64,000 bases of DNA. Origin: an uncultured Pelagibacteraceae bacterium. Lineage in GTDB: Bacteria > Pseudomonadota > Alphaproteobacteria > Pelagibacterales > Pelagibacteraceae. This document shows, in pieces, positions 6,972-61,729 of this stretch (position 1 is its first letter; every line of letters begins with the position of its first letter). Under the pieces are notes generated by a model that was not told the origin of the DNA, searched no databases, and worked only from the letters and a program-made list of their open reading frames with translations. The stretch lies in the NCBI GenBank assembly GCA_902630665.1, contig CACOVP010000004.1, forward strand, positions 1 to 64,000, read 5' to 3'. A program made the position numbers and the translations under genes.

Positions 6972-7842
6972 ACTCAAAAGAGTATGAAAGGATCTTATAA
7001 GCTAATTTTGCCACTAAAAAGTTATATGAGTTAAATTTTTTTATCGGCGCAAGTTCATTAATATCTGCTCCAACAATATTTGATATTTGGCAGACCCTCC
7101 TTAATATCGGCAAAATTTCATCCCAAAACAAACCGCCCGGTTCTGGAGTTCCGGTTGCCGGCATAATACTTGAATCAAAACTATCGACATCAAAAGTTAT
7201 ATAAACTTGCTTGTTTTTAAATAAATTATTCAATTTTTTCAGATCCCATTTTTTTTTATCTCTAGCCCAAAAAATTTCTATTCTATTTTTATTTATATTA
7301 TAAAAATCCATTTCAGATTTTGAAAGATTTCTGATTCCAAAAGATACAACTTTTAAATTTTTAAAATCAAGGCATCTTTTAATTGCAGAAGCATGAGAAA
7401 ATTTTTCTCCTTGATAACTTTCTCTTAAATCAGCATGAGCATCAAAATGAAGGATGATTAATTCTTTATATTTTTTAGCAAAAGGTTTTATTGATCCTGG
7501 AGTAATAGAGTGTTCACCGCCTAAGACTAATGGAAATTTTTTTTCAGATAGTATCTTTTCATTAATTCCTGATAATTGATTTAGAGCCTCTTTTAATTTA
7601 CTTTTTATTTTAAAAGGTTTTAAAGTTTGAATGCCGATCTCTTTGTATGGCTCTTTGTTCAACTCTTCATCAAACAACTCAACTTGATGAGAGGCTTTAA
7701 TTATCTCTTTTGGTCCATTCTTAGTTCCGCTACCATAGCTAACAGTTTTTTCTAAACCGAATGGCACTACAACCACTTTTGATTTAAATTTGTGATTTAC
7801 ATCAACTCCCAAAAAACCTTTTTTCTGGTTTAAGTAATTCAT
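6961..7842 (-). CDS. speB: Agmatinase/arginase (ureohydrolase) family
   Basis: LGGEHSITPG, HFDAHADLRE, FDVDSFDSSIMPATGTPEPGG. Confidence 0.88.
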   Translation of the reverse strand: MNYLNQKKGFLGVDVNHKFKSKVVVVPFGLEKTVSYGSGTKNGPKEIIKASHQVELFDEELNKEPYKEIGIQTLKPFKIKSKLKEALNQLSGINEKILSEKKFPLVLGGEHSITPGSIKPFAKKYKELIILHFDAHADLRESYQGEKFSHASAIKRCLDFKNLKVVSFGIRNLSKSEMDFYNINKNRIEIFWARDKKKWDLKKLNNLFKNKQVYITFDVDSFDSSIMPATGTPEPGGLFWDEILPILRRVCQISNIVGADINELAPIKKFNSYNFLVAKLAYKILSYSFEFKR

Positions 7843-8892
7843 TTAAGACCTAAATATTTGTGAAAAATTTCTTTTTGATCTCTTTTTCCAATTAGCTCTA
7901 TGATATGCATCGCTTGCAATTAATGGCAATACACTAGTAGCCTCAGCAAATACCATCTGTTCTTTTGTAATATCAACTTTACCCCATGAGCTAGCTTCTT
8001 TTAATGTAGAGCTACTGCAAGCTCCATCTCTCGTATCAGCAACGGTAATTTGTATTGCATACTTATGCATATCAACCTTTTTGCCTAATAACTCTGCACA
8101 AACTACCGTATCTTGAATGAAATTTTTAGGCACTCCCCCCCCAACCATTAAAAGCCCTGATTGCTTTGATTGAAGTTTAATTTCAGTTAACTCTCTAAAC
8201 TCCCTTATAGAGTCGATTGTAATATGTCTATCAGGATTTTTTTCTTGATGCATTACAAGTCCAAATCCTGCTGAGCTATCAGTGAAAGCCGGGCAAAAAA
8301 TTGGAACATTATTATCGTACGCAGTCTCTATCAAAGAACCTTTTTTTTTAGAATTAGATTTAAGATATTTTCCTAATTCTAGTATGAATTCCCTTGAGGT
8401 ATATGTTTTAGGTTTTAATTTGTTAGCAATATCACAAATAGTTTGGTCACAAGCTTGTAGCTCTTCCTCATCAATATAGGTATCATAAATTCTATCTATA
8501 TAATTATTTCTTAATTCAGTATCATCTTGAAATTGAGATCCTTGATAATGTTTGAAACCCAAGGCTTCAAAAAAATCCATATCGATAATAGAGGCCCCAG
8601 TAGCCACAATAGCGTCGACCATATTATGTTTTACCAAATCAGTGTACAGATCCATACATCCGCCAGCCGAAGTTGAACCTGCTAAAGTTAAAAAAATTGA
8701 ACAATCCTTGTCTGCAAGCATTTCATTATAAATAGCTGCTGCTCTGGCTGTATCTCTAGAAGTGAAAGACATTTTATTCATTCCATCAATAATTTTACGA
8801 GCATCAAAAGATTTGATATCGATATGTTCGACTGGGGAATTAAGTAGAGATTTTTTATTGTGTCCGATGTTTGGACTATTTTTTTTATTCAT
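7843..8892 (-). CDS. Deoxyhypusine synthase-like protein
   Basis: DHS family fold; TLAGSTSAGG, TDSSAGFG and catalytic-Lys region EASSWGKVD. Confidence 0.85.
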   Translation of the reverse strand: MNKKNSPNIGHNKKSLLNSPVEHIDIKSFDARKIIDGMNKMSFTSRDTARAAAIYNEMLADKDCSIFLTLAGSTSAGGCMDLYTDLVKHNMVDAIVATGASIIDMDFFEALGFKHYQGSQFQDDTELRNNYIDRIYDTYIDEEELQACDQTICDIANKLKPKTYTSREFILELGKYLKSNSKKKGSLIETAYDNNVPIFCPAFTDSSAGFGLVMHQEKNPDRHITIDSIREFRELTEIKLQSKQSGLLMVGGGVPKNFIQDTVVCAELLGKKVDMHKYAIQITVADTRDGACSSSTLKEASSWGKVDITKEQMVFAEATSVLPLIASDAYHRANWKKRSKRNFSQIFRS

Positions 8893-48749: not shown

Positions 48750-49692
48750 TTTACATATTTTTTTAGGCGCAACAGTGGCGGATGCAGCAACTAGACCTTT
48801 ACATTGGGTGTACGATCCAAAAAAGTTAAAGAAATATATTAAGGGAAAAAAAGAAATAGCTTTTTTGAAAAAAAATAAGAGTCCTTTCTATAACATTAAA
48901 ACCGGAAATGTGTCTGGATATAATGACGTTGGACAAGTAATGTTTAGGACTTTGCTTTCTTCAAAGAAAAAAAAAGATGTTCTTAAAAACTTCAAAAAAA
49001 ATGTAATTAAAAACTTTGGTCCAGGCTCAAATTATTGGAAAAATTTAAAACTGAGAAAAAAATATAAAAAAGTGAAATGGAAAAAACCCATGAATGGTCC
49101 ATGGATCCATCAGAATATCTTAGAGACTATACAAAATATCAAATCTAAGAAAATTATCACTGGTGGTACTAAAGTAAACGAGTCCGATGGTTATTGTGCC
49201 GCTCTCCCATATTTTCTTTATGGAAACAAAGAAAAAGAACTTAAAAGGGTTATTAAATCTATAGCTAATTCAAGAATAAATGAAAAATACGCTTTATCTA
49301 AATTAAAGATTATAGAATTAGCTAATAAAAAAGATAAAAATCCTGTTCAATCTTTTGTTAAAAAATACAAAAAAAATAGATATTTCAAAGACGTAATTAG
49401 CAATATTAAAAAAGTTTCAAAACTAAAAAACCAAAATCATATAATGACTGTAAGAAAATTTGGTAAAGCTTGTAGTTATCCTGGCACATTTATGGGATCA
49501 ATTCATGCGATCATAACATCCAACAACTATAAATCTGCTATTACAAAAACGATTAAAGCTGGTGGTTGCAACTGTTCAAGAGCTAATTTTGTTGGTGCCT
49601 ATTTTGCTGCTTTGAAAGGCATAAAGTGCATTCCTAAGAAATGGATAAAAAAAACTATTCCTGCAAATAGAATCTTAAAAGTCATCATCTAA
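48742..49692 (+). CDS. ADP-ribosylglycohydrolase family (J1-crystallin-like)
   Basis: FLGATVADAATRPLHWVYD; GGCNCSRANFVGAYFAALKGIKCIPKKW. Confidence 0.75.
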   Translation: MDNLHIFLGATVADAATRPLHWVYDPKKLKKYIKGKKEIAFLKKNKSPFYNIKTGNVSGYNDVGQVMFRTLLSSKKKKDVLKNFKKNVIKNFGPGSNYWKNLKLRKKYKKVKWKKPMNGPWIHQNILETIQNIKSKKIITGGTKVNESDGYCAALPYFLYGNKEKELKRVIKSIANSRINEKYALSKLKIIELANKKDKNPVQSFVKKYKKNRYFKDVISNIKKVSKLKNQNHIMTVRKFGKACSYPGTFMGSIHAIITSNNYKSAITKTIKAGGCNCSRANFVGAYFAALKGIKCIPKKWIKKTIPANRILKVII

Positions 49693-50007
49693 TTCAAAAT
49701 CTTCGTCTAAAAAATCATCTTCAACACCTAATTTCTCAAGATCTTTCTTTGCTTTTTTTATTTGATAATCTCTAAAAGAAACAATCTTCGAGCAATTTTT
49801 AACAGATACTTTTTTTAAATTTTTATTTTCATGCCATATATTTTCACAATCTCTTAAAAAATCTGTACTCCAGGTATCTTTGATGCCAAAAGTAGCACCA
49901 TTCAGCAGGCTCCAAATAATTCTACAAAGTTCATTAAATTCATTTAATTCAAGTTTATTAGAACAATTTTTTATGACACTATCTAATTCTTCTTTTCCTA
50001 ATTTCAC
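49675..50007 (-). CDS. Hypothetical protein, acidic C-terminus
   Basis: 110-aa ORF overlapping upstream gene; last gene of the HerA/NurA operon. Confidence 0.65.
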   Translation of the reverse strand: MKLGKEELDSVIKNCSNKLELNEFNELCRIIWSLLNGATFGIKDTWSTDFLRDCENIWHENKNLKKVSVKNCSKIVSFRDYQIKKAKKDLEKLGVEDDFLDEDFELDDDF

Positions 50008-50225
50008 GACTTCGTAATTTCCTTCTCAACATTTTTTGAATTTACAACTAAATCTCCTTTATTTTCCTGAAATAATAGATACGGACGATCTTTTACCTTT
50101 ACCATCAAAATTGTTTCGGTCTCATTAGATTTTTCAACTCTGCAATAAATACACCACTTGAAATTTTTAGTTTTATTCTGCTTTTCAATTCTTATTTCAA
50201 TTTTATCTGTATCTAATAATTTCAT
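50004..50225 (-). CDS. Hypothetical protein
   Basis: 73-aa ORF with overlapping start and stop in the same operon. Confidence 0.6.
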   Translation of the reverse strand: MKLLDTDKIEIRIEKQNKTKNFKWCIYCRVEKSNETETILMVKVKDRPYLLFQENKGDLVVNSKNVEKEITKS

Positions 50226-50422
50226 TAATGGAACGTCCTACAGTCTTGTTCTAAATCAAAAAGTACTTGCGGATGAACACGTCCTTTGCCATAGCAAACC
50301 ACGCAACATCGTGTTTTCTTTTTAAAGATGCCAAATTTTCCTAAAGTAATTATTGGAGTAGTAACAATTTCTCTCCCAGCACCAAAACAATAGATACATT
50401 TAATCGTTATCTTTTCTCTCAC
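50225..50422 (-). CDS. DnaJ-type zinc-finger-like small protein
   Basis: CIYCFGAGRE...CCVVCYGKGRV: two CxxCxGxG-like repeats. Confidence 0.65.
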   Translation of the reverse strand: MREKITIKCIYCFGAGREIVTTPIITLGKFGIFKKKTRCCVVCYGKGRVHPQVLFDLEQDCRTFH

Positions 50423-50687
50423 TTCGCTCCTTTAGAAAATTATCAATTATGAAACTTATTATTAAGATATATGAAACAAATAAAATTATTCCGCCGCCTC
50501 TGATTAAATCAAAAATTTCGTGTTTTATGCCAAGAGTCAAAAAAATAATTCCTGAAATATTGAATAGAAAAGCAAATGGTGCACAAAACTTTGGAGTAAT
50601 TCTGAAAGTCCAAATATTCCAAATAGCAATTAAAAGCAAAGTAGTGGCAGCCATTCTCATTGCCAAAAGAGGGATTTCATATGACAC
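50400..50687 (-). CDS. Small membrane protein
   Basis: Three hydrophobic segments; overlaps neighbours. Confidence 0.6.
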   Translation of the reverse strand: MSYEIPLLAMRMAATTLLLIAIWNIWTFRITPKFCAPFAFLFNISGIIFLTLGIKHEIFDLIRGGGIILFVSYILIISFIIDNFLKERSERKDND

Positions 50688-52408
50688 TAATTAGGTCTCC
50701 TTTGATCTGATGACGAAATACTAGAAAAATCTTTAGCGAATTTTTTTCTAAGTTTGACTGTACTACTATCGTCCCAATTTTTTACCATCGATATAAAATT
50801 CTCATTTTGAATATCATCATTCAAAAGTTCTTCATCAAATTTGATTTGAACTGGCAAAGAAAAGTTAACTACTTGACCACAAATTATTGCTTGACCATTT
50901 GCTAAATTAGGTAACTGGGCAGTATCCTCTTTGTCAGCGTATTCTGAAGTATCCCTGCAAAACTTTTGAGCTTTCTGATTTTTCAATCTTAAATAAATAT
51001 GAGAGTTGCATTGGCTTATGATGGTATCATCAAGTCTATCTGGTTGCTGACTTACTAAACAAATCCCCGTACCAAATTTTCTTCCTTCTGTGATTATTCT
51101 TCTTATTGTTTCAACAGACGGTAAATTATCTTTATTTTCAGATCTTGATGGTACAAAATTTTGAGCCTCTTCTATAATAGTAAGGAATGGACAAATCTCC
51201 TCATTAATTTCTTGCCTAATATTAAATAAGGAATCCATTAAAATAGATAATATCGCACTAGCGGGCAGAGACTGATATCCCTTAAGATAAAGTATACTTA
51301 ATTGACCTTTACTTATAATTTTTTCAGGCTCAGTTACCGGATCTGGCAATTCCTCAAATTTTAGATCGCTCATTTTTTTTCTATGCTTATAATTAGTTTG
51401 TTCCATCTTATTGAGTCTTTTCAAAACTTCTCTTAAACTTCTAGTTACAACATAAATACTTGCAGGCTTATGTTGGTTGTAAGTACTTTTTGTTTTATCG
51501 ATAGTTTTTGTGCTACGCATCTTATAGATTTTGTTAGACTCAGTAATTAATCTTTCAATATATTTAGATAAGTCACCTCCTTCATAATTATTTTTACTAA
51601 TAAGCGTATCAAGATAATCGTTTTGAGGATCAGTAAGTTTTTTCCCTAATTTTTCAATTAATGTATACACAATCTCTTTATCGTCTGAATTTACTGATAA
51701 CTTAGGATAAAAAAGTTTTACTTTATTATCTTTAAAATATTTCTTTTGTTTTTGAACAAAACCTAAATAATCTCCATGAATATCTATAACTAATAAAGGG
51801 TAGTTTAATTTCATATATTCAGAAATTATTCTTCTAACAGCTACAGTTTTACCTGCACCTGACATTCCAGTAACGAGCATGTGTCTAGCCGCTAATTTTT
51901 CTGCATCTATTTGAATTTTAACATTCTTTCTAGTAGATAAGTTGCCAAGTAGAATTGGAAATTTTGCACCAAGATCACTGACTAATAACTTTTCCAAATC
52001 TTTTTCTGATGGATAAGTTACCATTGCGGCTGGTTTTACTGGATAATTCAAGGGCTTTAATTTTAGTTTCTCATCTGTATTTTTGGTATAACCTAAAATA
52101 TTTACGTTACAAATTAACTCGTCCCTTGTGGTTGGTAAAATAGTATCTGCAATATTGATATTTTCATTAGTTAGCTCTTGCGCTGCTTCTCTAGGAAAAA
52201 ATTGATTAAAACTATCAATACTAGTAATTTTACCCCAAACTGTAACTTCTATTATCTTATTTTCATCTATATCACTTGGAATTTTTGTCTGAGTGCAAAC
52301 AATATCTCCTTTACTTGCCTTATGACTTTTTAAAGTAAATGAAAATTCATTAATATTTGTTTCACCTAATACTGTTCCAATAACTGGCCATTTATTTGAC
52401 TTACTCAT
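50687..52408 (-). CDS. HerA-type FtsK/HerA superfamily DNA translocase ATPase
   Basis: HAS-barrel-like N-terminus VIGTVLGETNINEFSFTL; Walker A VTGMSGAGKTVAVRRI; LLVIDIHGDYLGF; Walker B FLTIIEEAQNFVP. Confidence 0.92.
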   Translation of the reverse strand: MSKSNKWPVIGTVLGETNINEFSFTLKSHKASKGDIVCTQTKIPSDIDENKIIEVTVWGKITSIDSFNQFFPREAAQELTNENINIADTILPTTRDELICNVNILGYTKNTDEKLKLKPLNYPVKPAAMVTYPSEKDLEKLLVSDLGAKFPILLGNLSTRKNVKIQIDAEKLAARHMLVTGMSGAGKTVAVRRIISEYMKLNYPLLVIDIHGDYLGFVQKQKKYFKDNKVKLFYPKLSVNSDDKEIVYTLIEKLGKKLTDPQNDYLDTLISKNNYEGGDLSKYIERLITESNKIYKMRSTKTIDKTKSTYNQHKPASIYVVTRSLREVLKRLNKMEQTNYKHRKKMSDLKFEELPDPVTEPEKIISKGQLSILYLKGYQSLPASAILSILMDSLFNIRQEINEEICPFLTIIEEAQNFVPSRSENKDNLPSVETIRRIITEGRKFGTGICLVSQQPDRLDDTIISQCNSHIYLRLKNQKAQKFCRDTSEYADKEDTAQLPNLANGQAIICGQVVNFSLPVQIKFDEELLNDDIQNENFISMVKNWDDSSTVKLRKKFAKDFSSISSSDQRRPN

Positions 52409-53700
52409 CTTCTTAAACCCCTAGCTGGTCTATTTGACCATCCTCTATTTTTTTTTGATAAGATTTTAACGGCCAATGAGATTGTATTTTTATCTCTTTT
52501 AGCTATCGCTTTCTTTAACAAGTAAGATGTATGATAATTTCTAGATGCTTTAGATAACCAGTTGGGTATCTTTGCAAATTTATCAACTACGTCCAACCCT
52601 ATTGGAAAAGAATACGATGGAAGTAATTTCGATACAGCAAGGATATAATGATAGTCTTTAATAAAATTTTCTGGATAATTTAAAGTTTCAATTCTTATCG
52701 GACACTGATTGTCAGTTACTTTGATATAGCCCATGAAGATATTTGGGTATTGCTCTACTACATCATCCCAAATAGATTTTTGAATTAGTTTGTACCCATA
52801 AAATTGTTTTTGAATTTCCAAGGGCTTAAGACCTTGATTCTTTTTGAGTATTATTTCAAATAAATTTGTATCTGTAATTCTATACTTGTTTATTATAGAT
52901 ATAGTTTGAGAATAATCCTTTTGTGAGATTATCCCTTTATTTTTATTTATGAAGAGGATATTTTTTATATAAGATGCAGAAACCGCAGTTTCTACTACAC
53001 CCCAAATAGGAAACTTACTTTTTTTTATAAACTTAATACATTCAAGATATATATTAATAAAATGTCGCTGATCCTTATTGAGCTTTCTATTGTTATTGAA
53101 AGGTAAAATATTTTCTACTGCAAATTGACAGAATGGAGGGAAAGAAGCATGTGTAAAAGGAGTCAGTATAGCTTGAATTGGCCCATGTAAAAAACAATAG
53201 TCTAAACTCTGTTTCATTAAGACATGTTTAACTAACGTCGCTGCTTCAAAGATGATTCTAGCTCCATCTTTTTTTCGAGATAAAAGAGCTTCTTCTTCAT
53301 GAGCGTCCTCTAAAAATTCATAAAGTTCATTATTAGGATCGTAAAGATCTCCCAAGAAGATCATATTCTCTTCAAAAAGCTCTTTTTGTTTTGACTTGTT
53401 TACAATGTAGCTTCCTGCTCTAATAGATAATGGTGCTGTAGAAATTATAGAAGCCTTGTCTACACCTCCGTCAACAAACGCTACAGTTTTATTCTTATTC
53501 TTAATCCAAAAGTCATTAGGTATATATTCAAGATCAACTATGTGATTTCCATGTTTCAAAAGTTTATAAATTGTATTAGCAACATTATTAGTTACCTTTA
53601 AAAAATTATCTTGTACTTGTGGACTAGCTGTTATTGCTTTATTCATAAAGTTTATGAATAAATTTGAGTTGTTTTTAATTGTTGAGTAAAAGTCTTTCAT
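52405..53700 (-). CDS. NurA-like domain nuclease partner of HerA
   Basis: VAFVDGGVDKASI near N-terminus, IIFEAATLVKHVL, FLHGPIQAIL, GVVETAVSASYI; ATGA overlap with the HerA gene. Confidence 0.75.
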   Translation of the reverse strand: MKDFYSTIKNNSNLFINFMNKAITASPQVQDNFLKVTNNVANTIYKLLKHGNHIVDLEYIPNDFWIKNKNKTVAFVDGGVDKASIISTAPLSIRAGSYIVNKSKQKELFEENMIFLGDLYDPNNELYEFLEDAHEEEALLSRKKDGARIIFEAATLVKHVLMKQSLDYCFLHGPIQAILTPFTHASFPPFCQFAVENILPFNNNRKLNKDQRHFINIYLECIKFIKKSKFPIWGVVETAVSASYIKNILFINKNKGIISQKDYSQTISIINKYRITDTNLFEIILKKNQGLKPLEIQKQFYGYKLIQKSIWDDVVEQYPNIFMGYIKVTDNQCPIRIETLNYPENFIKDYHYILAVSKLLPSYSFPIGLDVVDKFAKIPNWLSKASRNYHTSYLLKKAIAKRDKNTISLAVKILSKKNRGWSNRPARGLRR

Positions 53701-53945
53701 TAGTTTATTAATCCTCCAGTTGTATATTTGATTTTTCTTAAATTACCATTTCTCACTATTTTTAATTTTCTCTTAAACATTGCTTTATAGAGTCGAGAAA
53801 TGCGTTTGCAGAATTTTGCTGCTAGATATTTGTTCTTAAATGACCTTTGGTGAACTTTAATTTTTCCAGCTCTTGAAGACACGAATTGATAGAAAGGTAC
53901 AGAAAGAAATGAAGAATCGAATCCATGTCTCCTTGAGCTTTGCAT
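53700..53945 (-). CDS. Small basic protein, first gene of the HerA/NurA operon (start revised to 53945)
   Basis: AAAGGAGGATTAATAAAATG start; MQSSRRHGFDSSFLSVPFYQFVSSRAGKIKVHQRSFKNKYLAAKFCKR...; TAATG with the NurA-like gene. Confidence 0.6.
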   Translation of the reverse strand: MQSSRRHGFDSSFLSVPFYQFVSSRAGKIKVHQRSFKNKYLAAKFCKRISRLYKAMFKRKLKIVRNGNLRKIKYTTGGLIN

Positions 53946-54178
53946 TTTATTAATCCTCCTTTGTTTGTTTTTAATAAAGTTCATGAGGGTGTATTTATTT
54001 ACTAATTGCAAAATTTTCAAGTTATGTTGCGTATGAGTTGCATTAAGATGTATCACAAACGCTCAAAAAACCAATAAAATCAACAAAAATATGATATATA
54101 TAAATTATAGCAAAAAATTTTCGCAAAAAAGCAGAATTGACTTGAAAAAATTAAAAGAATTATCTATATAAGCTACAC

Positions 54179-54427
54179 ATGCGTAAACAAAAAATAAAAA
54201 CAGTAAATTTGAAGGTTCCACAAGAATTATGGCAAATGGCATTTGATTTAAGTATGGAAATCAGCCCAGATAAAACCAAACTTATCTCGCCTATAAATAT
54301 TTTCCGAATATCAATTAATCATTTATATGAAACTGCTGTTTATAGGGGCATTAAGTTTGTCTCAAAAGAAGAGTTAGATAAAGAGAAAAAACTACTTAAG
54401 GAGAAGGCTAATAAGCACGTTAACTAG
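54179..54427 (+). CDS. Possible ribbon-helix-helix-like small protein
   Basis: KTVNLKVPQELWQMAFDLSMEIS..ISPINIFRISINHLYETAV resembles beta-strand plus two helices; first gene of the rightward operon. Confidence 0.55.
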   Translation: MRKQKIKTVNLKVPQELWQMAFDLSMEISPDKTKLISPINIFRISINHLYETAVYRGIKFVSKEELDKEKKLLKEKANKHVN

Positions 54428-54428
54428 A

Positions 54429-56411
54429 ATGGCAGAAGATAAAAAAAAGATATCTGCAAGATGGTTCCCAAGGCCACCACAAGACTCTCAAAAAAAAAGA
54501 ATTTTTTTATACGATTTCGAAATATCCACTCGTATCGACTCAAAAAAAAGAGAAAATAATGCAAGATCAGTTGAGTTTGAATATGAAGTAAAAATTTTTT
54601 ATTTTGATAAAAAATTTGCAGGAAGTAATGAGCAACGTGCATTAGCAAGAAAACAAAGAGTTGAACAAATTCAATTCGCAAGAAAAAATGCAACATTCAC
54701 TCATGCTTTAAAATCAAATGAAAGAAGCAGTCTTTTTGTTGAAGTTACAAAAAAGTTAAAAGATAGATTTAAAAATGAAAAATTCATTAGAGAATGGGAT
54801 AATGTAATTAATTCATCATTCATTAATCATTTAAACCATATTGAAACTTTAGGTGTTAATGTTGAACAGCTAGAAAACACTAGTGATGAAAAATTTAATT
54901 CTAAGACTCCAAATCAAATTGTAACTGAAATAATAAGAAAAAAAAATTTATCTCCAAAAGAGATTTCTATTAACACTGGTTTAGATGAAGCTACGATTTA
55001 CAGGCACATTCAAAATACTTTATCGGTTAACAGACAAGCTGCAATTAAATACGCTAATTATTTTGGAATGGATCCAAGCGAAATATTATTTAATGACATT
55101 AAAATTCCTTTACAGGGAAAAGTTGATTTTACTTTTAAAGGCAAAGCTTTCGATGTCGACTATCTCAGTGATTTATTTTTAAAAGAATATAAACAACAAG
55201 ATACTTCATCAGCAATGAAAATTTACGAAAAAATTGAAATGATGAAAAAAATACAATTAGCTGAAGAAGAATATTTTCCTGGAAAAGTTCAGGAACAATA
55301 TTACAGTAAGGAAAAATTAACCGATCCATCAAAAAGTTTAGATTACGTAAGTTGTCCAAGAGATATCTATAGACCAGATATTAATGTGATTAGAGTAAAT
55401 TCTTCTGAAAGCCCATTTAACGAAAAGGACCTTTTTTACTATAAAGAAATTAGAGAAGAAAATTTAAAACGTCTCCAACTTTGTATTTTTGAAATTGATA
55501 TTTTTGAATTAGTAAGGAATATAGGAGGTACGAAAAATTTTTCAGAGGTACAAACACAACGTATACTCGGAAAAGAGATTTTTAAGGAAAATGCTAAATC
55601 GACTTTCAAAGAGGGTTTTCAGAAAGCTGTAGAACAAAATAAAAAAATATTAGAACAACTAACCGAATTTTATTCTAAAGCTGGCAGTGTAGGTACAGTA
55701 TATTTAGTTGGTCTGTATGGTAATGCGCAAAATGGAAATTCAACAATTTATACTATAGAAAACAATCTGCTTAAAAGTATATCAGCAGCTACCCAGTCAA
55801 AAAACCCTTTAAAGATATTTATTCAAATGGCTCAATCATCGTTATTAATACAAGAAATAAGACCAAAGAAGATATATCCAGTTGTAGCGATATTAGATAG
55901 TTATGAAACTAGAAAAGATAACGAGCTGAGATCTCAATTATTTAAACAAGGTAATTTGGTCTCAAAAATTTACACTAATAAAGCTATTCAAAGAAGCGAT
56001 CTTAAGAATTTAGAAATGTCAGTTAAAGAGGCCTTATTAAGACGCGAAAAATCAAATAACGACTTTAAATTTAACGAGCTTATTAAAAATATTGAGAGAA
56101 AACAATTACGCACAACTGAAATGTTAAAAAAATTTCGTCCTGACTATACTGACTCCGACGGAAGAATCGTAGAGCTAAAAAATGTAAGAGCCAACGATAC
56201 AAAAATCGAATTTGATAATTTATTACATAAATTTAAGCAAAATCAATTAGAGTTACAAAGAAAATTGGAAAAGAAATCAGAAGCTCAAAAAAGTATAGTA
56301 ATAGAGACAGCTGAAGCTAATAGAGAATACTTAAAAAATCTTGAGGAAAAAATTGAATTCTTAACAGATAAAATTAAAAATTTGGAAACAAAAGATGGAA
56401 AAAACAAATAA
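54429..56411 (+). CDS. 660-aa protein with internal XRE-like HTH and C-terminal coiled coil, unknown function
   Basis: TEIIRKKNLSPKEISINTGLDEATIYRHIQNTLSVNRQAAIKYANYFGMDPSEILF; C-terminal heptad-rich region. Confidence 0.75.
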   Translation: MAEDKKKISARWFPRPPQDSQKKRIFLYDFEISTRIDSKKRENNARSVEFEYEVKIFYFDKKFAGSNEQRALARKQRVEQIQFARKNATFTHALKSNERSSLFVEVTKKLKDRFKNEKFIREWDNVINSSFINHLNHIETLGVNVEQLENTSDEKFNSKTPNQIVTEIIRKKNLSPKEISINTGLDEATIYRHIQNTLSVNRQAAIKYANYFGMDPSEILFNDIKIPLQGKVDFTFKGKAFDVDYLSDLFLKEYKQQDTSSAMKIYEKIEMMKKIQLAEEEYFPGKVQEQYYSKEKLTDPSKSLDYVSCPRDIYRPDINVIRVNSSESPFNEKDLFYYKEIREENLKRLQLCIFEIDIFELVRNIGGTKNFSEVQTQRILGKEIFKENAKSTFKEGFQKAVEQNKKILEQLTEFYSKAGSVGTVYLVGLYGNAQNGNSTIYTIENNLLKSISAATQSKNPLKIFIQMAQSSLLIQEIRPKKIYPVVAILDSYETRKDNELRSQLFKQGNLVSKIYTNKAIQRSDLKNLEMSVKEALLRREKSNNDFKFNELIKNIERKQLRTTEMLKKFRPDYTDSDGRIVELKNVRANDTKIEFDNLLHKFKQNQLELQRKLEKKSEAQKSIVIETAEANREYLKNLEEKIEFLTDKIKNLETKDGKNK

Positions 56412-56721
56412 AACGCCATTTAAAAATATAGACAAAATTAAAGAAGATACTTTCTACTGCCCATGCCAACTTGCCAATTATGCTATAAGTCCTAGGACCG
56501 CTGCTAATTGGCGAAAAATTGAAAGAAAAATTAATGGCATAAAACCTGTAGAAGAGTACAAGGACAAGTACCAAATGGTTATAGATGAAAAGAAAAAAAT
56601 GAAAGTTTTTATAGGACCAAAATGGAAAAGAAAGGGCTTAAAAAACATAGTTTATCAAGGGAAAGATATAATTGATTTTACATTAACAAAAGAAAAGGAG
56701 AAAGAGGAAAATGGTGAGTAA
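56395..56721 (+). CDS. Hypothetical protein
   Basis: 108-aa ORF overlapping both neighbours. Confidence 0.65.
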   Translation: MEKTNKTPFKNIDKIKEDTFYCPCQLANYAISPRTAANWRKIERKINGIKPVEEYKDKYQMVIDEKKKMKVFIGPKWKRKGLKNIVYQGKDIIDFTLTKEKEKEENGE

Positions 56722-57784
56722 TTTTTTCTTAATAGTGAATATATTAATTTTATTATCATTAATCATAATTGGTGTAATCGGTTTTAAATATTATTTAAGT
56801 TTTAAAAAAGAAAAACTTCTTGAAGAACAGAGAAAAAAAAATGAGGAAGAAAAATTTTCAGAATTTAAGAAAGAAATGACAAGTAAATTTGAAAGTGTAG
56901 CAACATCTTATAATAGCTTTTCTAATAAAATTACTAAAGACATAACTGACTCATTTACTAGGTATGAGGAAAATGTAAAAAATTTTAATGAAAAAGTTCA
57001 AAAAATGGAGCAATCTCAAGAAAATTTGACCAAAATATTTTCCAATGTAAAAAAATTTGGAACTGCAGCTGAGTTTTCGTTAGCATCATTATTAAAAGAT
57101 CTTTTGTCACCAAGTCAATATATTCCTAACGCTAGAATCAAACCAGATACTACAGGAACAGTTGAATTTGCTATTAGACTACCAAAGGATGTTTTGGTAG
57201 CGGTTGACTCATTTTTCCCAGTTTCTCAATTAGAAAAAATAAAAGATGCTGATGAATTAAAAGATAAAAAATTATCTGCAGATGCAAGAAGAAAACTTGC
57301 TTCAGCGATTGATACTAAGGCATCGAGTATAAATGAACTTTATATTGATCCTCCAAAGACTGCACCTTTTGGTGTAGTTTATTTGCCAACTGAAAGTTTA
57401 TTTTTTGAAGCATGTAATTATAGAGATCCTAAAACAAAAGAACCATTAATTCATACACTTTACCGAGAATATAATATTAATATTTTAGGCCCAACAACTC
57501 TTTCTGTTTTTCTTCAAACTCTCCATTGGGGTTACGAGTCTGTTCAGATTTCTCAAAAGAGTAAAAAAATCTACGATGATCTTCAAAATTTAAAATTTAA
57601 TTTTGTTAATCATATGAAACTAATTGAGGAAATCTACAGAAACGCGAATCTCACGATGAAAAAAATAGATGAAGCAGGTAAATCTGGAAGGTCAATCACA
57701 AATGTTTTAGCAAACATTGAGGAACCAGATACTATTGAAATTAATCCAGAAACAAATCCAAAGAATTTGAAAGTATTAAAATAA
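56711..57784 (+). CDS. rmuC: RmuC family membrane-anchored recombination-associated protein
   Basis: N-terminal TM, coiled coil, then FGTAAEFSLASLLKDLL..., VAVDSFFP, FGVVYLPTESLFFEA, NILGPTTLSVFLQTL. Confidence 0.88.
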   Translation: MVSNFFLIVNILILLSLIIIGVIGFKYYLSFKKEKLLEEQRKKNEEEKFSEFKKEMTSKFESVATSYNSFSNKITKDITDSFTRYEENVKNFNEKVQKMEQSQENLTKIFSNVKKFGTAAEFSLASLLKDLLSPSQYIPNARIKPDTTGTVEFAIRLPKDVLVAVDSFFPVSQLEKIKDADELKDKKLSADARRKLASAIDTKASSINELYIDPPKTAPFGVVYLPTESLFFEACNYRDPKTKEPLIHTLYREYNINILGPTTLSVFLQTLHWGYESVQISQKSKKIYDDLQNLKFNFVNHMKLIEEIYRNANLTMKKIDEAGKSGRSITNVLANIEEPDTIEINPETNPKNLKVLK

Positions 57785-59202
57785 TGGCAAACTTTGTATT
57801 TTACGACTTTGAAACAAGCTCATCTAATAAATATTGGGGTCAAATCATTCAGATAGGTGCTGTTTTAACAAATGATAAATTACAAGAGTTAGATCGTTTT
57901 GAAGCAAGATGTAAATTAAATCCTGGAATTATTCCTGAAGCAATGGCTTTGATTGTTAATCAAACCACCCCAAAGATGCTGCAAAGCGCAAACTTATCTC
58001 ATTATCAAATGATTAGACAATTTGTTGAAACTTTAAAGAGGTGGGGTAAAGCAACCTATATTGGTTTTAATAGTATCGACTTTGACGAGGAGTATTTAAG
58101 GAACACCTTATTTCAAACTTTAGAATATCCTTACTTAACGAGCACTAATGGAAACACAAGAGGGGATCTTTTAAGTTTAGCACGAGCTGCTAATTTTTAT
58201 TATCCAGATACTTTAAAAAATTCAACCAATGCTAAAGGAAACGCTGTATATAAATTAGATCAAATGGCACCTATCAATGGCATCAAACATGATGCGCATC
58301 AAGCCTTAGGAGACTGTATTGCTACTTTAGAAATTGGAAAAATTATTTTAAACAAAGCACCTAACGTTTGGAGAGCTAGTTTAATGACTACAGATAAAAC
58401 TAAAGCTCTCGATTTAATTAAAAATGAATTATATTTTTGCACAGACGAGTTTTATTACGGAAAGAGCGTCGCTTTTTGTGAGACTTTTGTTTGTGAACAC
58501 CCAATTTATAAATGGGCTAAGTGTTTTGACCTAAAGCATGACCCAGATATTTATCTAAAAATGAGTGTTCAAGATCTTAAAGAGGCCATGGGTAAAAAAC
58601 CAAAATTTATAAGAACGATCAGACACAATAAACATCCTGTGATCATGAACCCATCATATGCGATGAACCTAGATGAATATAAAATACTTGGACCTGAAAA
58701 ATTAAGAGAAAGAGCCAACAAAATTAAAAATAATAAAGAATTTTCAGAGAAAGTAGCGATTGTTTTAAGAGAAGAGATTGAAGAGAAGGAGCAAACTAAA
58801 TCTCAAGAAGACATACCAGTTGAGGAAAGTATTTATAAAAAATTCACTCCTACAGAAGACAATAAATTAATGAATAATTTTCATGAGATTGAATGGGAAA
58901 AAAAATTTGGTACTCTTGATAAGTTTCAAGACGAAAGACTAAAATACTTTGGTCATAAGTTATTATATAGAGAGAAACCTGAATTGTTACCTAAAGAACT
59001 ATATAATGAAATTCATAAAGATGTTGCATTAAAACTTTTAAGTAAAAATTCAGAAAAATGGAATACGATTCCAAAAACTTATGCAGAAATTGATACATTG
59101 AGAGTAAAATTTGAAAAACAAGGTAACAAAGAAAATCTGACTTTTCTTGATGATATTAACGTATACGTTGAAGATTTAGAAAAAAAATACTCAAGTGTGT
59201 AG
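57784..59202 (+). CDS. sbcB: Exonuclease I (SbcB-like, DEDD 3'-5' exonuclease)
   Basis: FVFYDFETSSSNKYWGQIIQIGAV, GFNSIDFDEEYLR, HDAHQALGDCIATLEI, RHNKHPVIMNPSYA. Confidence 0.9.
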   Translation: MANFVFYDFETSSSNKYWGQIIQIGAVLTNDKLQELDRFEARCKLNPGIIPEAMALIVNQTTPKMLQSANLSHYQMIRQFVETLKRWGKATYIGFNSIDFDEEYLRNTLFQTLEYPYLTSTNGNTRGDLLSLARAANFYYPDTLKNSTNAKGNAVYKLDQMAPINGIKHDAHQALGDCIATLEIGKIILNKAPNVWRASLMTTDKTKALDLIKNELYFCTDEFYYGKSVAFCETFVCEHPIYKWAKCFDLKHDPDIYLKMSVQDLKEAMGKKPKFIRTIRHNKHPVIMNPSYAMNLDEYKILGPEKLRERANKIKNNKEFSEKVAIVLREEIEEKEQTKSQEDIPVEESIYKKFTPTEDNKLMNNFHEIEWEKKFGTLDKFQDERLKYFGHKLLYREKPELLPKELYNEIHKDVALKLLSKNSEKWNTIPKTYAEIDTLRVKFEKQGNKENLTFLDDINVYVEDLEKKYSSV

Positions 59203-59554: not shown

Positions 59555-60807
59555 TTTTTATTTAAAATATTTCCACAGTTATAAAGACTACCAAAACAGA
59601 CAATTAATTTTTTTTCTTTACTACTTATTTTTTTTAATGCTTCTGTAAAATTACTACTTTTTTCAGCTTTGAATTTATTTTTTATTGCAATTTTATAAAG
59701 CTTATTTACTGAGACTGAGTTAATTTCATTTTCAATAGGCATTATAACAATTTTTTTAAAAACTCCTTTAAGCTGCTTAATAAATAAATCTGGTTCTTTA
59801 TTCTTAGTCATAGCCCAAATTCCATATTTAGGAATTTTTATATTTTTTAAATATGCTACTAAATTTTGTGCATCAGCAGTAGCATGTGCGCCATCAATCA
59901 TGATAATTTCATTTTTGTGCAGTCTATTTTTAATTTTTCCTTTATTAAGGTATTGAAATCGACCCTCAAAAGAAAGCAAAGGTAAAGTCTTTTGGATAGT
60001 TTTCTTATCTATTTTGAGATCAAGTGCTACTTTTATAGCAAGGCAAACATTTTCAAACATTCCTTTAGAATAAACATTTTTAGTATTAAGTTTAATTTTG
60101 CATTTTCTATCTTGATAGTAATACTGGTTACCCTTTTTAGTAAGTTTCCAATTGTTTGGATATATAATTTTACTTTTATTATTTTTTAAGTGGGTCTTTA
60201 TTTTTCTTAAAACATTTGGTGACTGTTTACCTACGTAAACATTTGTAAAATTACTTAGGAAGCCAACATCTTCTTTAATAACCTCGTCCAACGTTTTTTT
60301 CTTCAAAAAATTTAAGTGTTGCTTATTTATATTTGTACAAATTTGTATTATTGGAAAGTCGTGTACGTTATTTGAGTCGAGTCTCCATAAGGCTCCAGTT
60401 TCCTGTATATTATAATCAGTACTTAGTTTGGAAGCATTCAAAATAAACACCAGAGTAAGACACTCATACACTGTTAGTGGAATTTTTAATTTTTCAATTT
60501 GATTAATAGTTTTTTTTATTTCTTTATAAGAAAGATAGCTATTTCCCATATAGAATCTTTCCCTAATATCTTTAAGTGATGGAGAAATATGCATTGTGGT
60601 AGTTTGACCATTTGCTTCTATAAATGATTTTAATGAGTATAAAGTTGTAAATTTTCCTGATTCTCCTAAAACCTGAATAATATTATTAAGTTTTCTCTCA
60701 GGATTTCCTAATAATTTAAGAGCTAGCTTTATTCTTTTAAGTCCAAACTTAACAGATTTATTAAATAACTTATGATTAGCTAGCTGATTGTAGATCAACT
60801 TTGACAT
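59551..60807 (-). CDS. folC: Folylpolyglutamate/dihydrofolate synthase (divergent P-loop)
   Basis: Mur-ligase-like, ISPSLKDIRERF, EGRFQYL, IMIDGAHATADAQ; position next to accD-trpA-trpB. Confidence 0.85.
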   Translation of the reverse strand: MSKLIYNQLANHKLFNKSVKFGLKRIKLALKLLGNPERKLNNIIQVLGESGKFTTLYSLKSFIEANGQTTTMHISPSLKDIRERFYMGNSYLSYKEIKKTINQIEKLKIPLTVYECLTLVFILNASKLSTDYNIQETGALWRLDSNNVHDFPIIQICTNINKQHLNFLKKKTLDEVIKEDVGFLSNFTNVYVGKQSPNVLRKIKTHLKNNKSKIIYPNNWKLTKKGNQYYYQDRKCKIKLNTKNVYSKGMFENVCLAIKVALDLKIDKKTIQKTLPLLSFEGRFQYLNKGKIKNRLHKNEIIMIDGAHATADAQNLVAYLKNIKIPKYGIWAMTKNKEPDLFIKQLKGVFKKIVIMPIENEINSVSVNKLYKIAIKNKFKAEKSSNFTEALKKISSKEKKLIVCFGSLYNCGNILNKN

Positions 60808-61729
60808 TAGACGTTGACTCAGCCTTTGCTTCTATTTCGGATTTTTTAAGAAGGACTCTTATTAAGTTTGTTATCTTCTCTCTAATTTCCATTCTTGACT
60901 CGAAAGCACCATCAATCATTCCATGCTCTACTATGCTTGATGCTTGACCAAAATCTTGAGGCAGTTCGTGACCTTTATTAACAGATGCTGAAACTCTCTT
61001 TCCGGCGAACAATAAATTTTCACTTTTTGGGTATTCAGCAAATATAAAGTCATTTCCATAAACATTACAAAAAGTTCCACCAGTAATTTTAGAACCACAA
61101 ATCCCAATAGTTACTATTCCTGCTTTTTTCAACATTTTCATAGCCATCATTTGAACAGGCATATTTTTTAAAGAATTTAAATTTCCAGTAACAGCCATTC
61201 CTCCGCTTTGGTAGAATGATACTACTGCATCAACTTTCTCATCTAACGCTTTTTGGATACCTGCTAATAAATGTTCACCCTCTCTTTGAGTTAACGCTGC
61301 ACCTCCGTGTTGAAAATTATAACCAAATGCAATTATTCTTAATCCATTTACAGTTCCTTTAGCTGCAAGTATAGCACTTTGTTGGCCGGTTTTGTTTTTG
61401 TAAGCATTATATTTGTCAATAAATTTTTTGTCTCCAATTTTAAAATTTAGAGGATCTGGATCTGCCCACTCAGGACATTCAATTAACTCGTATTCACCGT
61501 CATCAAAAAACATTTCTGAAAATCTCGTTTTTGGGTCTAAATCAAAATGGTGAGTACATTTACAAACATTAAAATTCTTTTTTAAATCTTCCTTTAAAAG
61601 CATTTGATTACAACCTGGACAATTGATCCACATGCTATCAGCCTGATCTTCTCTAGATGGCCTTTTTCTTTTAAAAGTTTCTTTTACCCTTTCTACAAAA
61701 CTTTTTTTTAAATTTTTGATCCAGTTCAT
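60776..61729 (-). CDS. accD: Acetyl-CoA carboxylase carboxyltransferase beta subunit
   Basis: Zn finger CPGCNQMLLKEDLKKNFNVCKCTHHF; EGEHLLAGIQ. Confidence 0.95.
   Translation of the reverse strand: MNWIKNLKKSFVERVKETFKRKRPSREDQADSMWINCPGCNQMLLKEDLKKNFNVCKCTHHFDLDPKTRFSEMFFDDGEYELIECPEWADPDPLNFKIGDKKFIDKYNAYKNKTGQQSAILAAKGTVNGLRIIAFGYNFQHGGAALTQREGEHLLAGIQKALDEKVDAVVSFYQSGGMAVTGNLNSLKNMPVQMMAMKMLKKAGIVTIGICGSKITGGTFCNVYGNDFIFAEYPKSENLLFAGKRVSASVNKGHELPQDFGQASSIVEHGMIDGAFESRMEIREKITNLIRVLLKKSEIEAKAESTSNVKVDLQSAS

Follow-up and report, generated by a model that had tools for sequence, protein, structure and literature searches.

HerA-type ATPases that are paired with nucleases are proven anti-phage effectors in the case of DUF4297-HerA, whose complexes are active and toxic and are in need of tight control (PMC11291478), and an antiviral role has been proposed for archaeal HerA-NurA (PMC12977600). 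Capture systems that combine HerA/FtsK proteins with rapidly evolving sensors have also been proposed already (PMC12839542, which cites earlier work). Here we describe a HerA-NurA island in a stretch of 64,000 nucleotides, hereafter the window, which lies on contig C4 in the genome (829 kb, 70% complete) of an uncultured Pelagibacteraceae bacterium (SAR11); all positions refer to the window unless another locus is named. SAR11 bacteria are among the most abundant bacteria of the ocean and are heavily infected by pelagiphages, and to our knowledge few of their defence systems have been described. The original prediction for this locus had joined a leftward operon with HerA and NurA-like genes and a rightward operon ending in RmuC and exonuclease I (ExoI) into one DNA-end-processing or defence module. 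From sequence comparison, we consider it probable that the locus is an anti-invader, probably anti-phage, island in which a constant HerA-NurA effector is combined with an exchangeable sensor/regulator cassette.

All twelve predicted open reading frames were present at or near their predicted positions, in two divergent and tightly packed gene runs (49675-54056, reverse strand; 54179-59202, forward strand), and the same gene order was repeated in G089 and G435, the same-genus relatives used for comparison, and is therefore not due to chance. The HerA-type DNA-translocating ATPase (573 amino acids; 50687-52408, reverse) matched PF01935 (8e-22, 78.8 bits against a cut-off of 23.2), the PADLOC HerA model (5.6e-46) and a HerA-family helicase in the PDB (1.6e-49), and carries intact Walker A (GMSGAGKT at 181) and Walker B (IIEEA at 411) motifs; against the archaeal HerA equivalog NF040819 it scored 153.9 bits and did not reach the threshold of 970. 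In one relative (L028/L052, AG-911-P04), an apparent frameshift splits HerA into fragments of 221 and 256 amino acids, which reflects either a real inactivation or an assembly error.

The adjacent NurA-family nuclease (431 amino acids; 52405-53700, reverse) scored above the PF09376 cut-off (4.6e-5, 23.5 bits against 21). An AlphaFold model built from 19 sequences (predicted local distance difference test, pLDDT, 66; predicted template modelling score, pTM, 0.71) was used to examine if the protein adopts an unrelated fold, and a NurA-type RNase H-like fold was found: the best PDB fold match was NurA 2ygk (E 2.6e-7), and all eight matches with E < 0.001 were NurA structures, among them those of NurA from Sulfolobus and of HerA-NurA from Thermococcus as a complex. 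As judged by the modelled fold, the nuclease gene of the left operon encodes a genuine NurA. D77 sits in an invariant DGG motif at the expected domain start and was equated, by motif order and not by superposition, with the catalytic Asp D58 in motif I of Sulfolobus NurA (PMC4641729). Further along the protein, HGP (172) and LDVVDK (369-374), both invariant, lie where motifs of NurA would be expected and carry H172 and D373. We take canonical NurA to have an Asp at the former and a His at the latter position, so that the two residues are possibly swapped. A PDB sequence search with the NurA profile returned a chance PPR match only.

NurA was found in 16 of the 397 genomes of the order (4%, the window's genome counted), and scanning a genome collection with the NurA alignment gave 28 loci, 26 of them in Pelagibacteraceae or Candidatus Pelagibacter and two in a Proteobacteria metagenome-assembled genome. 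Among 99 genomes of the family, R2 (the large protein of the right operon) was found in two, the window's genome and G089, and HerA in the same two. No NurA was found in phage and plasmid records, nor any PF09376 match in 142 alphaproteobacteria, the latter being a weak zero as the same genome-wide mode failed to detect the NurA of the window itself. Wherever the flanks are long enough (about 25 loci, the distant copy in G195 not counted), the L1-NurA-HerA genes adjoin RmuC and ExoI, with thioredoxin and folC alongside. In genomes of the window's genus that yielded no NurA, the gene bordering the island typically follows rmuC directly, and in one of these relatives, G342, a different gene set is placed exactly between rmuC and this border gene. 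Its genes include one for a Druantia-like DruA/DUF4338 protein of 657 amino acids (1e-121) and one for a GHKL-type ATPase that matches MzaB (4.5e-13). Since a Druantia-like gene occupies the same spot in a relative, this slot is a defence hotspot. The stretch from rmuC to an ADP-ribosylglycohydrolase-like gene in G342 (L078, G342:C12) also encodes a sigma-region-2-like protein and what may be a small nuclease.

More distant NurA-HerA pairs lie in contexts of restriction or defence type. A NurA-profile search of 399 Pseudomonadota identified two further pairs, with C5 DNA methyltransferases, a Vsr endonuclease (4.8e-41) and an MzaE/AIPR protein (1.2e-101) among their neighbours, and the divergent SAR11 pair in G195 (L038, G195:C1, 9378-14126) lies at a different locus beside a C5 DNA methyltransferase and an HNH protein, both read from sequence motifs, and a PD-(D/E)XK-like protein.

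Two architectures of the island were identified. The window type (window, G089, G435, and G419) carries R2 and R3 upstream of RmuC, and the common type (21 loci) carries an AAA_15 ATPase, a protein X and a sigma-like protein, followed by L1-NurA-HerA. The AAA_15 protein matches the PADLOC models NsnB, AriA, GajA, and PtuA; the sigma-like proteins matched Sigma70_r4 in 11 of 18 cases (best 2e-10) and Sigma70_r2 in four of 18, and no convincing Pfam match was obtained for 19 members of X. In both architectures, the cassette diverges while its neighbours stay constant. Between L031 and L058, trx (100%), ExoI (96%), NurA (100%), and HerA (100%) are identical or nearly so, as opposed to AAA_15 (30%), X (27%), and the sigma-like protein (23%), and the same pattern was seen for L028/L049, L029/L053, L033/L059/L062, and L030/L063. 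Among the 24 pairs in which NurA is at least 95% identical and AAA_15 was read in both genomes, AAA_15 falls below 40% identity in 20, with the adjoining X and sigma-like proteins mostly divergent too; overall, genomes with 95-100% identical NurA have cassettes of about 22-40% identity in most pairs, and their HerA proteins are likewise near-identical except for one broken copy. In the window type, comparison with G089 and G435 gave 99-100% identity for NurA, 98-99% for HerA, and 96-98% for RmuC, versus 61-64% for R3 and 45-46% for R2. A pattern of this kind marks a segment that has been replaced by recombination, or has diversified to an extreme degree, while the genes on either side stayed constant. 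Such divergence is expected of a recognition module, and phages would be what is recognised.

The window cassette consists of R2 (660 amino acids; 54429-56411, forward), a hypervariable phage-repressor-like protein and putative regulator or sensor, and R3 (108 amino acids; 56395-56721, forward), which overlaps the end of R2. As had been predicted, R2 carries a helix-turn-helix domain (PF13443, Cro/C1-type, 2.9e-5), and this part of its model gave fold matches to HigA and to the P22 c2 and lambda repressors (E > 0.02, probability near 1). For the S24/LexA-like domain there was no Pfam S24 match but a weak fold match to a lambda-186 hybrid repressor (E 0.024, probability 0.92). Residues 156-352 align with gp05 of Pelagibacter phage HTVC028P (27% identity, E 4e-12), which on this alignment makes R2 a homolog of a regulator of a temperate pelagiphage; HTVC028P encodes an integrase. 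In both proteins the homology spans the helix-turn-helix and the following domain, and in both a small overlapping reading frame follows. R3 takes the position of phage gp06, to which it shows no sequence similarity. Unlike gp05, R2 is longer, hypervariable, and located inside a HerA-NurA island. Full-length R2 was found in four island carriers only among 151 genomes of the genus. Relatives were found in 50 viral contigs by an alignment-based search, which was needed as single-sequence scans of the contigs with R2 and with HerA gave zero matches, and HTVC028P-like prophage stretches with an R2-like gene occur in two SAR11 genomes, one of them with an integrase. The small protein L6 (73 amino acids; 50004-50225, reverse) is related to a small HTVC028P protein (7737-7988 of the phage; profile-profile probability 92%, E 5e-7), and a prophage copy of the latter matches an island L6 by BLASTP (E 7.6e-9). 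In L037 (G419:C7, 823-3102), the R2 relative is fused to an FtsZ C-terminal domain (PF12327, 7e-19), which may serve as a decoy or act on a target.

We propose that a HerA hexamer would pump invading double-stranded DNA into NurA, which would degrade it, with the small accessory proteins L1 and L4-L7 as part of the constant unit. The cassette, presumably a sensor, would restrain the expression or activity of the effector until infection; it would be formed by the phage-repressor-like R2 with R3 and a co-inherited RmuC in the window, and by AAA_15, X, and the sigma-70-like protein in most relatives, on an island set in a defence hotspot beside core rmuC-exoI-trx. R2 might control the divergent promoters or be triggered by related phages. 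More tentatively, the island may provide a plug-in immunity in which at least two unrelated cassettes are swapped whole on a constant HerA-NurA, and in which the window type would detect related temperate phages by means of a repressor-like protein captured from a prophage; we regard this stricter version as possible but doubtful. Several points weigh against a defence island of this kind. The NurA model is of moderate quality (pLDDT 66) and the R2 model as a whole is weak (pTM 0.44). A sensor role of AAA_15, X, and the sigma-like protein is assigned by analogy, with X belonging to no recognised family. No modification enzyme by which self could be told from non-self is present in the island. 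Finally, R2 and L6 resemble phage genes, so the island may derive from a phage satellite.

According to this last explanation, the island would be a mobile element or a domesticated, satellite-like prophage remnant with R2, R3, and L6 as phage-type regulators, and HerA-NurA would serve the element, for example by attacking competitors or the DNA of a helper phage. The homologies of R2 and L6, the 50 viral contigs with R2-like genes, and the movement of the island between genomes all agree with it. However, within its borders the island has no recognised integrase, capsid, or packaging gene, the site of insertion does not vary, the exchange resembles homologous recombination through the flanks, R2 is missing from most islands, and searches of phage and plasmid records gave no NurA. 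We therefore consider a satellite-like element unlikely, although it is the strongest competitor of a defence island.

Slightly less likely still is a housekeeping role in DNA-end resection or recombination repair, as in archaeal mre11-rad50-herA-nurA operons. End resection by HerA-NurA has been reported in archaea and Deinococcus (PMC9960219, PMC4641729), and RmuC and ExoI, encoded next to the pair, function in recombination or stability, but an island present in only 4% of genomes, with a hypervariable cassette and without a recognised mre11 or rad50 among its scanned proteins and the conserved genes nearby, hardly fits such a role, and biochemistry from 2026 speaks against resection even in an archaeon (PMC12977600). 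That the island is sporadic, shares its hotspot with a Druantia gene, and swaps its cassettes leads us to favour defence over housekeeping end-processing.

The border with the host genome bears on the original prediction, in which all twelve genes including RmuC and ExoI form a single module. Both identities were confirmed: RmuC (357 amino acids; 56711-57784, forward) by PF02646 (6.8e-39), and ExoI (57784-59202, forward) by NCBIfam and PADLOC models, with NF008746 at 4.8e-48 though below its equivalog cut-off. The two operons are adjacent in all islands with flanking sequence, window-type RmuC travels with the island, and the PADLOC models RTasSbcB (1.3e-87) and RTasRmuC (7.6e-6), which match the pair, show that it also occurs beside reverse transcriptase defence genes; among the island proteins scanned with Pfam or PADLOC, no reverse transcriptase was matched. 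On the other hand, ExoI is present in 368 of 397 genomes of the order, and 20 genomes that yielded no NurA have the rmuC-exoI block, usually with trx. In the ExoI tree, which tracks the genome and not the island, the window and G435 group with island-less G342 (98.5% identical to the window's ExoI), and G089 groups with island-less G052. In contrast, all members of the window-type RmuC clade are island carriers (support 99/99, to be read with caution due to long branches), and this RmuC is about 41% identical to that of island-less genus-mates; in genus g4, RmuC of carriers and non-carriers are intermingled. From these trees and the near-universal presence of ExoI, it follows that ExoI is host DNA at the border, a core gene outside the variable unit, and that an island-borne RmuC allele travels with the window-type island. 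Thus, HerA-NurA, the divergent cassette, and window-type RmuC do travel together at one locus in several genomes, as predicted, and independent occurrence was found for ExoI but not for R2-R3 or window-type RmuC. A twelve-gene module is accordingly improbable. At g4 loci (e.g. L027, 3256-4011), a PD-(D/E)XK nuclease-like gene lies between RmuC and ExoI; it occurs with or without the island and was not seen in the window's genus. A conjugation- or Ced-like DNA import or export machine built on HerA and a small membrane protein is the least credible explanation, as the CedD match of HerA (2.8e-25) is far below cut-off, relaxase, pilus, and channel genes were not recognised, and the partner of HerA is NurA and not a transfer protein, even though L4 resembles a membrane protein and HerA-superfamily pumps can act at membranes.

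The remaining genes of the left run are small. L1 (81 amino acids; 53700-53945 from its ATG, the reading frame reaching a GTG at 54056; reverse) is a basic protein of no recognised family; it lies upstream of NurA in all islands that were sequenced to this point. L4 (95 amino acids; 50400-50687, reverse) is a predicted small membrane protein, and its conserved family counted 13 members in the loci compared first. The suggested DnaJ-type zinc finger of L5 (65 amino acids; 50225-50422, reverse) remained below cut-off (PF00684, E 0.036), with CxxC pairs visible in the sequence, and we describe L5 as a zinc-finger-like peptide. L7 (110 amino acids; 49675-50007, reverse), an acidic protein and the last gene of the island, is 45-47% identical in G089, G435, and G309 and gave no Pfam match over cut-off. 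Between the ATG codons of L1 and R1 lies a gap of 233 bp with 24% GC, AT-rich as predicted, in which a 26-nt block upstream of L1 (54028-54053, reverse) is identical or has one mismatch in G089 and G435, with a chance expectation of 0 in the window, making it a candidate promoter or operator. Shuffled sequence held more promoter-like sites than the real one, and the small number of terminator-like sites gave no information. R1 (82 amino acids; 54179-54427, forward) had been suggested to be a ribbon-helix-helix protein, for which no Pfam match was obtained; it belongs to no recognised family, has no counterpart in G089 or G435 and may be an optional or spurious reading frame. Beyond the island, an AccD-like protein (60776-61729) is about 36% identical to that of genus-mates, compared to 65-90% for its neighbours, which suggests that the gene has been replaced.

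The island is more interesting for its modularity than for the pairing of its two operons. If true, whole-cassette swapping on a HerA-NurA effector would link archaeal-type HerA-NurA directly to bacterial immunity and bear on the question if HerA-NurA is a repair or an antiviral enzyme. Natural islands that are matched in their effector but differ in their putative sensor would moreover allow phage specificity to be mapped to the cassette.

Among systems with related components, TdpAB is tied to phosphorothioate DNA. It combines the HerA-like TdpA with a partner, and its structure (PDB 8wfd) weakly matches the fold of the window's NurA (E 3e-3), whereas no phosphorothioate genes were identified at the SAR11 island. 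DUF4297-HerA and SIR2-HerA share with the island a HerA-type ATPase beside a partner enzyme, a sporadic distribution and defence contexts, but the SAR11 nuclease is a NurA of RNase H-like fold, accompanied by an exchangeable cassette and small proteins, and no DUF4297 or SIR2 partner was matched in the island by Pfam or PADLOC. The HerA/FtsK capture systems (PMC12839542, citing earlier work) also unite a HerA translocase, a nuclease, and a fast-evolving DNA-binding or sensory protein, often with an ATPase; they differ from the SAR11 island in their cassette proteins, and DndH, PglZ, DUF6079, and STAND proteins were not recognised in the latter. Archaeal and Deinococcus HerA-NurA (PMC12977600, PMC9960219) consist of the same two enzyme families in adjacent genes with the NurA fold, whereas the SAR11 pair is divergent in sequence, stands without mre11-rad50, and is accessory, not core, with hypervariable cassettes. 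Within the partial literature covered, a NurA partner with swappable cassettes in SAR11 appears to be a new member of a general kind of system that has already been proposed.

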